Notes under the pieces: model-generated | Told to the model about the DNA's origin: nothing | Database searches by the model: none | What the model saw: only the letters and a program-made list of their open reading frames with translations | Made by a program: the position numbers and the translations under genes | Shown here: one piece after another, positions 24,126 through 47,497 of the stretch | Layout of the letters: every line of letters starts with the position of its first letter | How positions within the stretch are numbered: position 1 is the first letter of the stretch | Assembly: GCA_002816715.1 (NCBI GenBank) | Contig: MUCJ01000041.1 | Location: 1 to 52,177, forward strand | Length of the DNA: 52,177 nt | Reading direction: 5' to 3' | Origin: SAR202 cluster bacterium Casp-Chloro-G3 | GTDB taxonomy: Bacteria > Chloroflexota > Dehalococcoidia > Lucifugimonadales > UBA3495

Positions 24126-24761
24126 ATGTCCGAGTTTAACTTCACCACATACTACGACTTTCGTTGACCCTTCGTATACAACGCAGCCGTGTGGCTGTCG
24201 AAGGTAAGAGAGACCACCGGACAGTCGGTGGATGTCGACTGGCAGCCCTTCTCGCTGGCCCAGGCCAATAGTGCGGACAAGGGCGAGGATTTTAAAATCT
24301 GGGAGCAGCCGGGGATAATAGACGGTTCGGACACAGCGTTACTGGCTCACCGCGCTGGCTTGGCCGCCAAGCGTCAGGGTAAAGAGGCATTTGAGTCCTA
24401 CTTGATGACCCTACTAAAGGCCCGCCACGAAGAGAAGAAAGACCTGACCGACCCGGCGGTGATCCACGATGCTGGGGTCGCTGCCGGCATCGACATGGGA
24501 CAGTTCCAGGAGGACCTGCTCGATCCTGATCTGCTGCGGGAAATCGGCGAAAGCCACACCAAGGCCGTTGAAGAACACGGCGCATTCGGTGTGCCGACCT
24601 ATGTGTTCCCGGGCGGTGGCACGGCGTTCATCAAGATGTTCGTCCCCCCCGATGAACAGGCCGGAGCCATCTACAACAACCTGAGCGAAATGGTCTCCAC
24701 CCTGATGCACGTCGGCGAGGTCAAGCGGCCCCAGCCGCCCTGGCCCCACGGTGTTATCTAG
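24126..24761 (+). CDS. Selenocysteine-containing DsbA/FrnE-like oxidoreductase (U-P-F-V site)
   Basis: A 211-aa thioredoxin-fold protein read through one in-frame TGA at 24165-24167 as Sec14. AGGAGGT (24114-24120) sits 5 nt before the ATG. The N-terminus reads MSEFNFTTYYDFR-U-PFVYN, the place where DsbA/FrnE proteins have the CPxx active site. The rest is family-typical: a helical insert, then the cis-Pro loop GVPTYVF. No resolving Cys follows in the U-P-F-V site, so it would act as a one-selenol redox enzyme, isomerase or glutathione-dependent enzyme. A frame starting at 24189 would lose the active site. The hairpin after the TGA fits a SECIS. rnc follows 12 nt downstream. The main alternative, a nonsense mutation, is unlikely given two similar cases in this window. 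Confidence 0.88.
24169..24204 (+). promoter_or_regulatory. Putative bacterial SECIS hairpin (Sec-DsbA 1)
   Basis: Just after the TGA, an outer stem CCTTCG/CGAAGG (24169-24174 with 24199-24204) encloses an apical stem CAGCC/GGCTG (24184-24188 with 24193-24197) with a GTGT loop. The apical stem begins 16 nt after the TGA, in the range for bacterial SECIS elements read by SelB. Confidence 0.65.
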
Positions 24762-37030: not shown

Positions 37031-37387
37031 TTAGACGCTGGCGAGAGCCGCTTCAATCGCCTTTATGTTGCCGCCCACCAGCAGGCGGTCGCCCAGCTTG
37101 ATCAGGGGGCGGCGCACCAGCTTGGGTTCTTGCAGCATCAGCTTGACCATCTCGTCTTCAGAAATTTCCTGACCGACCACGCCCATTAGCTTCAAGCTGG
37201 GACTGCGCCAGGCAAACATATCCGACAATCCCACCATTGACGCCAGGCCCCGTATTTCTTCCTCGGTGAAGCGGTCTTTGAAAAAGTCCCGCTCCTCCAA
37301 CTCCATACCTTTTTGTAAGAGCAACTCCCTTACTTTGCGGCAGGTGGATCAACGAGGCCAGGTGTAAAAACCTACTTTATCGCTCAT
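37031..37387 (-). CDS. Selenocysteine-containing ArsC/Spx-family reductase (U-S-T-C site)
   Basis: A 118-aa thioredoxin-fold protein read through one in-frame TGA (37349-37351) as Sec13. AGGAAG lies 6 nt before the ATG (37385-37387). It reads MSDKVGFYTWPR-U-STCRKVREL, matching the family site Y-x-x-P-x-C-S-T-C-R-K with Sec for the first Cys and the second Cys kept. Downstream, ERDFFKDRFTEEEI and KLVRRPLI are family hallmarks. Members are glutaredoxin-linked arsenate reductases or Spx-like regulators; with Sec, a redox enzyme is more likely than a regulator. The frame starting at 37324 loses the active site. A hairpin follows the TGA by 15 nt. Confidence 0.9.
37315..37333 (-). promoter_or_regulatory. 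Putative bacterial SECIS hairpin (Sec-ArsC)
   Basis: On the coding strand, GTAAGGG (37333-37327) pairs with CTCTTAC (37321-37315), one pair being G-U, around a 5-nt loop AGTTG. The stem begins 15 nt after the TGA, the same spacing as in the two DsbA-like genes. Confidence 0.6.
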
Positions 37388-41207: not shown

Positions 41208-44060
41208 CTACGCGCTGCTGAGGGCCGAAACTTTGGCGATTCTTGCCGATAGAATCTCCAAGCCGGGCGCTTTAGACATGGGATTCTTTTCCTCGCTGGA
41301 CTGCAGCTCTACGGCCAACTGGCCGAAGAGCGTGGTAACACTGATCACGCCGGGCGGGATTGAAGGGTCCAACCGGGCTAAACCAGACCAAGTCCCCCGG
41401 GGCGTCACTACTTCTACTGGATCACCGTCTTTGATTAGCTCGTTTTCCGCGTAACTGGGATGCAAAGACACCAGTTCATCCCGCACCAGCCGGTTCAACT
41501 TGCCCGTCACCACGGTGGTTTCCCGGTCGGTCTGCAACAATACCCGGCCGGGGACAAACCAGCCGGAGTATTCCGAATCCAGGTGAGGCTCGGGAGCTTG
41601 AAACACGGGAGTTATCGGATCGGCTTTACCGTTAGGAAAACCATTTTGATACAAGATCGGCGTGGCGGATGGATCATCAGCGGTACATGGCCATTGGATG
41701 CCTCGACGTTCCTTGCCAGAGTAAAGCACTTGGGTCGGTTTGGGCATCTCCAAGCCGCTCCGAAACACGGTAGAAACCTGGGATTCCAGCAGTGGGTAGG
41801 ACACGCCAGAGTATATTGGACAGACCGACGCTATCTCATCCATGATCGCATAGGCAGCGGGATAGTCGAACCCGCTATACCCCATCCGGCGGGCGAGTTC
41901 GCCGAACACCCATTGTTCGGGTTGAGCGCCACCACTCTTCGACTGGATGCTGGGCTTCACCCTTTGGATTCGCCGCTCCAGGCTGGTATAGGTACCGTCC
42001 TTTTCCGCGAAGGTAGACCGGGGCAGCACCACGTCCGCAACCTGGGCCAGCTGTCCCCAAAAGGTATCCTGCACCACCAGAAAGTCCAGGTTCTGGAGGG
42101 CCGCCAAGCCATCACCCAATCTCCCATTGGTAAAGTTAGGGCTGTCGCCAATGATCAGCATGGACTTGATCTGGCCGTCCCGCGCGGCATTGATGGCATC
42201 AGCAACGCCCAACCCCTGGGAAACTGAAATTGTACAATTCCAGGATCTTTCCAACGCCTTCACCACCGTCGCGTCTCTCAACGAGAGGTTCCCGGGCAAA
42301 CGGTTCGGCACGCATCCCACGTCGGAGGCTCCCTGCTCGTTCATCCCCGACCGCATCGGGAAAATCCCGGCGCCGGGCTTGCCAATGTTGCCAGTAAGGA
42401 GGGCCAAGTTTACCAGGGACAGCACGCAGTCCCGCTGTAACTCACCAGGGAGGTTATCCAAGGCGTAGACCACTGCTCCGCCGTCTGCTTGGGCGAAGAT
42501 ACGGGCAGCCTCGGCGATGGCTTCCTCCGATACGTGGGTGACCCGGGTCACGTGGTCCATATCTATGGAGTTAAGGGTATAGTGCAGGGTGGCCGGTTCC
42601 TCGCAGTTTTCATCCATCCACTCGGTTTGCTCCAGGCCCTGGTCTACCACCGCTTTGAGGATGCCGCCCAGCAGCAGCAACTCGGTTCCAGGCACGGGAC
42701 GCAGCCAAGAATCGGCGTAGCGAGTCAGTTCGACTTCGCGGGGATCAATCACGATCAGCTTGGCGCCACGCTGTGCGGCCTTCTTGATGGGCACGCCCAC
42801 CACGTTTTGATCTTCGGTCAAGTTGGAGTTGAAAACCAAAATACAGCCTGCATGCTCCAGTTCCCAGATGGAGTTGGTGGCGGCGGCATACCCCAATGCT
42901 CGTTCCAGTCCCACCGTAAGCTCCGGCTGGATGTTTGAGGTCTGGTCAACGTTATTGGTACCCATCACCACCCGGGCGAATTTCTGCGCCAGGTACAGTT
43001 CCTCGTTGGTGCTGTTGGGTGATGCCAGTAGCGCGAAGGCATCACCTTTGAACTCCGGCAGGCGGCCAGCGATTACGTTTAACGCCTCGTCCCAGGTGGC
43101 CTCCTCCAATTGCCCATTGCGACGGACTAATGGCTGCTCGAGCCTGGCCGAGTCGTTCAGGAATTCCAGGCCAAACTTGCCTTTGAAGCAGGCTTGACCG
43201 TGGTTGGAAGGCGAATTTAACTCCGGCACAGCGCGAATCATCTTACCGGCACCATTGAATTCCAGATTAAGCTGACAACCCACCGGGCAATGGGGGCAGA
43301 TAACCTGCTCGACCCGTCGAGCCTTCTCCCACTTATGTTCCCTTTCCACCAGGGCGCCCACGGGACACACATCAATACAGGCGCCGCAAAACTCGCAGCC
43401 GGATTCCAGCAACGAATCGCCAAAGGATGTCCCAATCAACGCCCGACCGGAGCGGTCGGTAAAGCAGAGCGCGGAATTGCCGCGCACCTCTTCACAGACT
43501 CGGACGCAACGCCCGCAGGTAATGCACAGGTTCAAGTCCCGGTCGTAGAAAGGGTCGCTGACCTCCAGAGGAATCTGGCGGTATTTGTACTCCAGCGGAG
43601 ATTCCAGCTCCATGCCCAGATAACGGACAGTGTCTTTGAACTCGCATCGTTCGTTTTTTGGGCAGGTGATACAGCGGTCATTGACCGAAACATGGCGGAG
43701 GCAGACATCGCTGGGGCCGCAGATATCGACACGATGGCAGGTCAAGCATCCATTGGGATGTTCCGCTATGAGCATCTCCATCACCGAGCGGCGCAGTTCG
43801 TTGACTTCATGGGACTCACTGCGGATTTTCATCCCGTCGGCCACCGGCAGCGTGCAGGACGCCGGGAAGCCCCGGCCACCCTCCACCGACACCACACACA
43901 TGCGGCAGGCAGCGAAGGGCTTCATGCCGGAGTGGTAGCACAGATACGGAATATAGATACCGGCTTCAATGGCGGCTTCCAGCACCATCTTGCCGGGCTG
44001 AGTCTTGATATCCACGCCATCAATGGCGATGGTTATATCGGTGGTAATATTTTCTGCCAT
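41208..44060 (-). CDS. nuoG: NuoG/formate dehydrogenase alpha-like Fe-S molybdopterin-fold subunit
   Basis: A 950-aa protein. Order: an N-terminal [2Fe-2S] domain (CYHSGMKPFAACRMCVV); a His/Cys-rich segment (EHPNGCLTCHRVDICGPSD, then CITCPKNERC); two 4Fe-4S motifs (CITCGRCVRVC, CEFCGACIDVC); then an FDH-type domain with its own cluster (CPHCPVGC … ACFKGKFG). In true formate dehydrogenases, Sec or Cys ligates Mo/W just after NNVD. Here the stretch reads NNVDQTSNIQPELTVGL with Gln378 (codon 42927-42929) at or next to that place and no following His, so formate oxidation is unlikely. The C-terminal molybdopterin-like domain is kept. With nuoE and nuoF next door, an electron-transfer NuoG role fits best; another small-molecule oxidoreductase activity is possible. 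Confidence 0.88.
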   Translation of the reverse strand: MAENITTDITIAIDGVDIKTQPGKMVLEAAIEAGIYIPYLCYHSGMKPFAACRMCVVSVEGGRGFPASCTLPVADGMKIRSESHEVNELRRSVMEMLIAEHPNGCLTCHRVDICGPSDVCLRHVSVNDRCITCPKNERCEFKDTVRYLGMELESPLEYKYRQIPLEVSDPFYDRDLNLCITCGRCVRVCEEVRGNSALCFTDRSGRALIGTSFGDSLLESGCEFCGACIDVCPVGALVEREHKWEKARRVEQVICPHCPVGCQLNLEFNGAGKMIRAVPELNSPSNHGQACFKGKFGLEFLNDSARLEQPLVRRNGQLEEATWDEALNVIAGRLPEFKGDAFALLASPNSTNEELYLAQKFARVVMGTNNVDQTSNIQPELTVGLERALGYAAATNSIWELEHAGCILVFNSNLTEDQNVVGVPIKKAAQRGAKLIVIDPREVELTRYADSWLRPVPGTELLLLGGILKAVVDQGLEQTEWMDENCEEPATLHYTLNSIDMDHVTRVTHVSEEAIAEAARIFAQADGGAVVYALDNLPGELQRDCVLSLVNLALLTGNIGKPGAGIFPMRSGMNEQGASDVGCVPNRLPGNLSLRDATVVKALERSWNCTISVSQGLGVADAINAARDGQIKSMLIIGDSPNFTNGRLGDGLAALQNLDFLVVQDTFWGQLAQVADVVLPRSTFAEKDGTYTSLERRIQRVKPSIQSKSGGAQPEQWVFGELARRMGYSGFDYPAAYAIMDEIASVCPIYSGVSYPLLESQVSTVFRSGLEMPKPTQVLYSGKERRGIQWPCTADDPSATPILYQNGFPNGKADPITPVFQAPEPHLDSEYSGWFVPGRVLLQTDRETTVVTGKLNRLVRDELVSLHPSYAENELIKDGDPVEVVTPRGTWSGLARLDPSIPPGVISVTTLFGQLAVELQSSEEKNPMSKAPGLEILSARIAKVSALSSA

Positions 44061-46659: not shown

Positions 46660-47301
46660 CTAGGAAGCCGGGGCCTCCAGCAACTTGCTCATCGCCGATT
46701 GGAAAATTTCGTAGGGGTGCGCCCCGGTGAAGAGCAGGTTGCCCACCACAAAGGTTGGTATCCCTCGGATGCCGTGCCCCAGGGCTTGCTGGTATTGCTC
46801 CATAACGGCAGGTGTGTACAGGCTGCTCTCCAATCCCGCCAGCAACTCAGTTGAATTCAACGAAACTTGCTGAGCCAGGCCCTCAATCACCGCCAGGTCG
46901 CCCAAGTCTTGTCCATCTTCCCAGTAGGCTTTGTAGGCCGCGTGGTGGAACTCCATGAACTTGCCCTGCCGCTGGGCGTACTCGGTGGCCTCCAAGATGT
47001 ACATGGTGTTGGGAGTGACTTTGGGGGGCCGCATGATCAAGTTGGACTCGCTGGCTTGACTCCGCAGAGGCTCGCTAAGCTGGCCGTCGGCCTCACCGGG
47101 TCGGGGTTGCCGCACAATACCTTCCTTGGGGGTATCTGGCCGCAGCAAATACGCTTGGCCGACGATTGAAATGTTGTAGTCTTGACTCAACCGGTCGACT
47201 CTTTCCAGGCCGACATAGCACCAGGGTCAAATATAGTCGTACCAGACTACTACTTTAACCGGGTCGGAAGTGTTGAGGGGATGCTGGACAGGTTCGGTCA
47301 T
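46660..47301 (-). CDS. Selenocysteine-containing DsbA/FrnE-like oxidoreductase (U-P-W-C site)
   Basis: A 213-aa thioredoxin-fold protein read through one in-frame TGA (47227-47229) as Sec25. AGGAGT lies 5 nt before the ATG (47299-47301). The site reads VVVWYDYI-U-PWCYVGLER, the classic DsbA/FrnE C-P-W-C motif with Sec for the first Cys and the resolving Cys kept. The remainder is FrnE-like: a long helical insert (YAQRQGKFMEFHHAAYKAYWE) and the cis-Pro loop GIRGIPTFVVGN. No signal peptide is visible, so it is probably cytoplasmic. A frame starting at 47190 loses the active site. It is upstream of nuoE on the same strand but 154 nt away and behind a separate promoter. Confidence 0.92.
47187..47213 (-). 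promoter_or_regulatory. Putative bacterial SECIS hairpin (Sec-DsbA 2)
   Basis: On the coding strand, TCGGCC, a bulged T and GG (47213-47205) pair with CC and GGTTGA (47194-47187), two pairs being G-U, around a 10-nt loop. The stem begins 13 nt after the TGA. A bulged U near the loop is a known mark of bacterial SECIS elements bound by SelB. Confidence 0.65.
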
Positions 47302-47497
47302 AACTACTCCTGTTCCATTTTGATGAGTTGGAGGGGAAGAACAGGTGGAGTCTAGCAGCGACGTGTTGGCTGGTCAACCGGGTGTTTATATCTTGCGATG
47401 CCGTTTGAAACCGTTTGATACCGTGGTTAAAAATCAAAACTAGTTTCTGTAGGTGGAGGAACTAAAGGGAACTGAGGTCAACAAGCGAGAGTTGCTG

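Follow-up and report, generated by a model that had tools for sequence, protein, structure and literature searches.

A predicted FrnE/DsbA-type selenoprotein with a UPWC site in a SAR202-cluster genome, and its cysteine-containing relatives

Selenoproteins of the "DsbA-like" UxxC type have been known since 2005, when a Sargasso Sea study listed them under COG2761 (PMC1088965); DsbA 1, DsbA 2 and DsbA 3 selenoproteins were subsequently given for GOS (PMC2398784), and a review of 2026 has a "DsbA-like protein form 1" (PMC13188914). In the accessible portions of these three sources, Chloroflexota are not mentioned for this class. The best structural reference is the FrnE of Deinococcus radiodurans (drFrnE; DR_0659; PDB 5CNW and 5CP1), for which isomerase and insulin-reducing activities have been reported (PMC8945050). 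The location given for FrnE proteins is the cytoplasm, and in Deinococcus they have a CP(W/F)C site. Many of them, but not all, carry a C-terminal CXXXXC, which does not strictly define the group; in drFrnE it has been proposed that this pair restores the active site (PMC8945050).

The gene that we consider here lies in a window of 52,177 nucleotides, which is the whole stretch of DNA that was analysed (contig MUCJ01000041.1 of the SAR202 cluster bacterium Casp-Chloro-G3). An earlier note, made from the sequence alone, had presented it as a missed selenoprotein, in which a TGA stands at the first Cys of a C-P-W-C site while the frame, the Shine-Dalgarno sequence and the ATG are intact. All of this is borne out by the frame read from 47301 to 46660 on the minus strand, in which the TGA at residue 25 is the sole stop before the end and whose translation runs MTEPVQHPLNTSDPVKVVVWYDYI-U-PWCYVGLERV... 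The features of the locus are the following.

46660-47301, minus strand: full coding sequence of the predicted FrnE/DsbA-like selenoprotein, 213 aa, TAG stop (frame, PF01323, family conservation)
47227-47229, minus strand: in-frame TGA, putative selenocysteine (Sec) codon, U25 of UPWC (sequence, TGA conservation, Cys column, codon use)
47218-47220, minus strand: TGC codon of the putative resolving Cys28 of UPWC (sequence; invariant in the alignment)
46756-46758, minus strand: Pro182 of the putative cis-Pro loop (GIPT), invariant (alignment and model; cis from the fold family)
47307-47311, minus strand: Shine-Dalgarno sequence AGGAG, 5 nt before the ATG at 47301-47299 (sequence)
47194-47214, minus strand: bSECIS-like hairpin with GG opening its apical loop, nt 13-33 after the TGA (folding and comparative test)

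A mechanical ORF call gives 46660-47190, with a TTG start and 176 aa, so that the active site is lost, just as the note had said. The PF01323 (DSBA) match extends over residues 17-204 and spans the TGA (E 4.9e-30; 105.2 bits vs a gathering cut-off of 25.6). Positions 25 (Sec) and 28 are the only Cys or Sec residues of the protein, the C-terminal CXXXXC is absent from the whole translation, and no signal peptide is apparent on inspection by eye. Rfam at its gathering thresholds returned no match anywhere in the window.

The TGA is kept in a large set of relatives, and the nearest named loci are those of Dehalococcoidia and SAR202 cluster MAGs. A near-full-length copy (identity of at least 58%) with exactly one stop, a TGA, was found in 46 of the 50 family genomes. 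When the window's genome and its relatives are taken together, 65 of 99 have a TGA copy, and in the best matches the TGA is the only stop in frame. An even draw across the phylum gave a match at E <= 1e-15 in 96 of 400 genomes, most of them with one TGA. In 61 distinct genes the column of residue 25 reads TGA; five copies that are more distant have TGC there, and a single one (L143) has TCT. With L174, L180 and L181, the TGC homologues come to eight (L119, L120, L139, L141, L142, L174, L180 and L181), and no stop codon other than TGA was seen there in the aligned homologues. Homologues with Cys in the TGA column, which the note had proposed as a check, therefore exist, and on either side of the TGA the similarity extends over the full length.

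The note had also claimed a hairpin downstream of the TGA. It is present and recurs in most sequences, but its own folding energy is unremarkable: against dinucleotide shuffles, z is about -0.2 for the window's gene and averages -1.1 over the family, which is uninformative, and significance comes only from a comparative test. Because the protein is conserved at the hairpin, we chose a protein-preserving null, in which the amino acids are kept and the synonymous codons are redrawn from each gene's own usage. Under this null, codons 4-12 after the TGA have a mean z of -2.82 over the 61 TGA genes, every one of them below -0.5, although these genes are related and do not amount to 61 independent tests. 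The mean z of the remaining segments along the gene lies between -0.49 and +0.18, and that of codons 4-12 in six non-TGA homologues is -0.58. Taken alone, the window's own gene is borderline (p = 0.07). The codons of the hairpin are nearly fixed (GGC in 37/38, CTG in 36/38, GTC in 34/38), and for the same residues further downstream the codons are mixed. Judged from the synonymous null and from codon choice, the hairpin is thus conserved beyond the requirement of the protein, and the bSECIS check that the note had asked for gives a signal at the comparative level.

The machinery that would read this codon is only partly represented in the bin, which comprises 1.36 Mb in 60 contigs and is 66.7% complete. 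The note would have given up its reading if the genome had no selA, selB, selC and selD; selB is there, and its product of 621 aa has the GTPase, beta-barrel and winged-helix domains (355.6 bits vs a cut-off of 242). The other three were not found in this bin, which says little because about a third of the genome is absent. The tRNA-Sec candidates of the bin were rejected, as they proved to be Arg, His, Leu, Ser and Lys tRNAs. We made the sel calls in the 99 genomes with curated cut-offs for selA, selB, selD and tRNA-Sec: most relatives hold selA, selB, selC and selD, their SelD usually with an in-frame TGA of its own, and all 65 genomes with a TGA copy have at least one sel component. Four genomes (G065, G077, G080 and G091; 89-97% complete) are without all four components; they have no TGA copy, and the sole homologue that they carry is the Cys form.

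In a maximum-likelihood tree, the Cys copies are scattered in four separate places among the TGA copies; since the tree is rooted at its midpoint, the direction of the Sec/Cys changes is something that we infer. The sel-free G091 has the TGC form and its family mate G053 the TGA form (support 100/94), a contrast that, on these sequences, looks like a change from Sec to Cys that went with the loss of Sec decoding. As a separate observation, L120, L139, L141 and L142, from other family genomes, form a paralogue clade of their own with CPHC or CPHS active sites, and the genomes that carry this paralogue retain the TGA in the orthologue of the gene considered here.

Our reading, of which we are highly confident, is that the gene would encode a cytoplasmic FrnE/DsbA-type thiol-disulfide oxidoreductase with an attacking Sec (UPWC), the UGA being recoded through SelB and a SECIS hairpin. 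The draft bin of the window is incomplete, and in it a nonsense mutation or a base-call error in a CPWC gene could pass for such a codon; the identical TGA in dozens of independent genomes, conserved in the family and across the phylum, refutes a pseudogene or assembly error, and both the SECIS signal and the purifying selection downstream of the TGA (74 synonymous vs 31 amino-acid changes over 180 codons, against the nearest relative) argue against it as well, so that we give it practically no credit. Hardly more credible is a true start at 47190 or later, such as the standard ORF call yields, which would make the product a DsbA-like protein without CxxC and the upstream part a leader peptide. 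The upstream segment YDYI-U-PWCYxGLxR is in fact the best-conserved part of the protein, with D22, Y23, position 25, P26 and C28 invariant in the alignment (as is P182 further on), the PF01323 match begins before the TGA, and the SECIS would then be purposeless.

If a special or near-cognate tRNA decoded the UGA as another residue, Cys or Trp, this would fit the failure to find selC in the bin, and the replacement by Cys is by itself equally compatible with Cys insertion. This explanation is nevertheless very improbable in view of selB in the bin, of the tRNA-Sec, SelA and usually TGA-bearing SelD of the relatives, of the constraint on the SECIS, and of the use of TGA as an ordinary stop elsewhere in the window, where it terminates 9 of the 37 long ORFs. 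A global recoding of TGA was rejected on this same count. We infer, at the level of sequence, that selenium is actually inserted at U25.

The predicted structure of the Sec-FrnE protein, modelled with Cys in place of Sec, has a pLDDT of 91 and a pTM of 0.87. In this model, residue 25 lies just before the helix 26-41 and Pro182 just before the strand 183-186, which is the DsbA arrangement. The best PDB match is drFrnE, both by fold (Foldseek, where it takes the top five places) and by sequence (phmmer). The cytoplasmic drFrnE has its CPWC at the same place, with Cys where the SAR202 protein has Sec, but also an additional C-terminal CXXXXC pair that the SAR202 protein lacks. With respect to the FrnE subfamily (cd03024), the Foldseek and phmmer matches and the UPWC motif point to the fold and to the CP(W/F)C-type site, and the CXXXXC is missing. 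The Rcas_1661 family of thioredoxin-like (seleno)lipoproteins (NF041057, DsbG-like) likewise combines a thioredoxin fold with an optional Sec; membership in it was rejected, the match being confined to the C-terminal half and reaching 45.8 bits vs a cut-off of 190.

In the mechanism that we propose, SelB and Sec-tRNA(Sec) would recode UGA codon 25 under the direction of the bacterial SECIS hairpin, which starts 13 nt downstream and inside the coding sequence; disulfides would then be attacked by the selenolate, placed at the N-terminus of the first helix, and Cys28, adjoining the cis-Pro182 loop, would resolve them. The function is assigned from the homology to drFrnE, whose sequence is about 25% identical. 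By analogy with drFrnE, a reductase/isomerase is more likely than an oxidase; with the cytoplasmic location of FrnE proteins and the lack of a signal peptide by eye, we favour a disulfide reductase/isomerase that is selenol-based and presumably cytoplasmic. As the protein has no other Cys and lacks the CXXXXC pair of drFrnE, another partner must regenerate it, which would be thioredoxin, glutathione or another low-molecular thiol.

The note had placed the gene upstream of nuoEFG, which is only roughly right: NuoE-like and NuoF-like genes do follow it, and the third gene (41208-44060, minus strand) is of the NuoG/formate-dehydrogenase-alpha type, with TIGR01591 as its best NCBIfam match (488 bits, below the cut-off). 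By eye, the product of this third gene has no Cys or Sec at the place where FdhF has Sec (VDQTSN), and for this reason it may not be a formate dehydrogenase. On the other side, a HAD hydrolase gene precedes the Sec-FrnE gene in 29 of 34 family loci, the other five being truncated or having an intervening gene such as a histidine kinase/regulator. NuoE/NuoF-like genes are found downstream, at variable spacing, in at least about 15 family loci, a lower bound because for many loci the available flank measures no more than 1.5 kb. In the flanking stretches examined from outside the family, none of the window's downstream genes turned up in the vicinity of the Sec-FrnE gene. An operon-level functional link with these neighbours is only a suggestion. 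It would be a bold and rather doubtful step to see here a distinct Chloroflexota-wide Sec-FrnE subfamily that many SAR202-type genomes keep beside an NAD-linked oxidoreductase module (NuoE/NuoF/Fdh-like), that serves this module as a factor for selenium-dependent thiol maintenance, and that has repeatedly been converted to Cys upon loss of Sec decoding.

Further redox genes with an in-frame TGA are found in the window and elsewhere in the bin.

24126-24761, plus strand: DSBA-domain selenoprotein candidate, motif UPFV, TGA at 24165-24167 (TGA copies, SECIS-like signal)
37031-37387, minus strand: ArsC/Spx-like selenoprotein candidate, motif U-S-T-C, TGA at 37351-37349 (TGA copies, hairpin)
L147 1429-1893 (minus strand), L148 1429-1989 (minus strand) and L152 1453-2952 (plus strand), other contigs of the bin: AhpC/TSA- and thioredoxin/NHL-type genes

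The UPFV candidate, found with its TGA in 39 of 50 related genomes, has its putative Sec at the first catalytic position and no second Cys, and it compares with the GOS "DsbA 3, UxxV" (PMC2398784). The ArsC/Spx-like candidate, directly after mutS, occurs with its TGA in 42 of 50 genomes and shows a clear hairpin behind the TGA (GTAAGAGAGTTGCTCTTAC in relatives). Codons 4-12 give a SECIS-like signal in both of these window genes (z of -2.55 and -2.12, ten loci each). In L147, L148 and L152, the TGA falls at the motifs GGUTDQ, FAULPC and CUINC, which are the expected catalytic positions, and from their sequences these genes are likely further selenoproteins of the bin.

The Sec-FrnE gene belongs to a selenoprotein class that is already known, and the note had called thioredoxin-fold Sec proteins an established class; none of the papers searched names its Chloroflexota subfamily. 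COG2761 is the FrnE COG. The published DsbA-like selenoproteins (PF01323/COG2761; DsbA 1 in GOS) share with our protein the Pfam domain, the UxxC and the Sec at the first catalytic Cys, and they are marine, as are the SAR202 relatives by their own descriptions. What differs is that the present subfamily is traced to SAR202-type and other Chloroflexota with its genome context, its likeness to the published class being one of description. A named SAR202 or Chloroflexota FrnE selenoprotein was not found in the open-licence literature, and an earlier description may exist. The gene opens no new mechanism. Its interest lies in that at least three genes within one 52-kb window are stripped of their active sites by a plain ORF call, and in that an uncultured Chloroflexota lineage, near the SAR202 cluster MAGs, is indicated to use selenocysteine in several redox enzymes. 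The Sec-FrnE family offers in addition a natural experiment, in which Cys stands where Sec would be and the genome has lost its sel genes.
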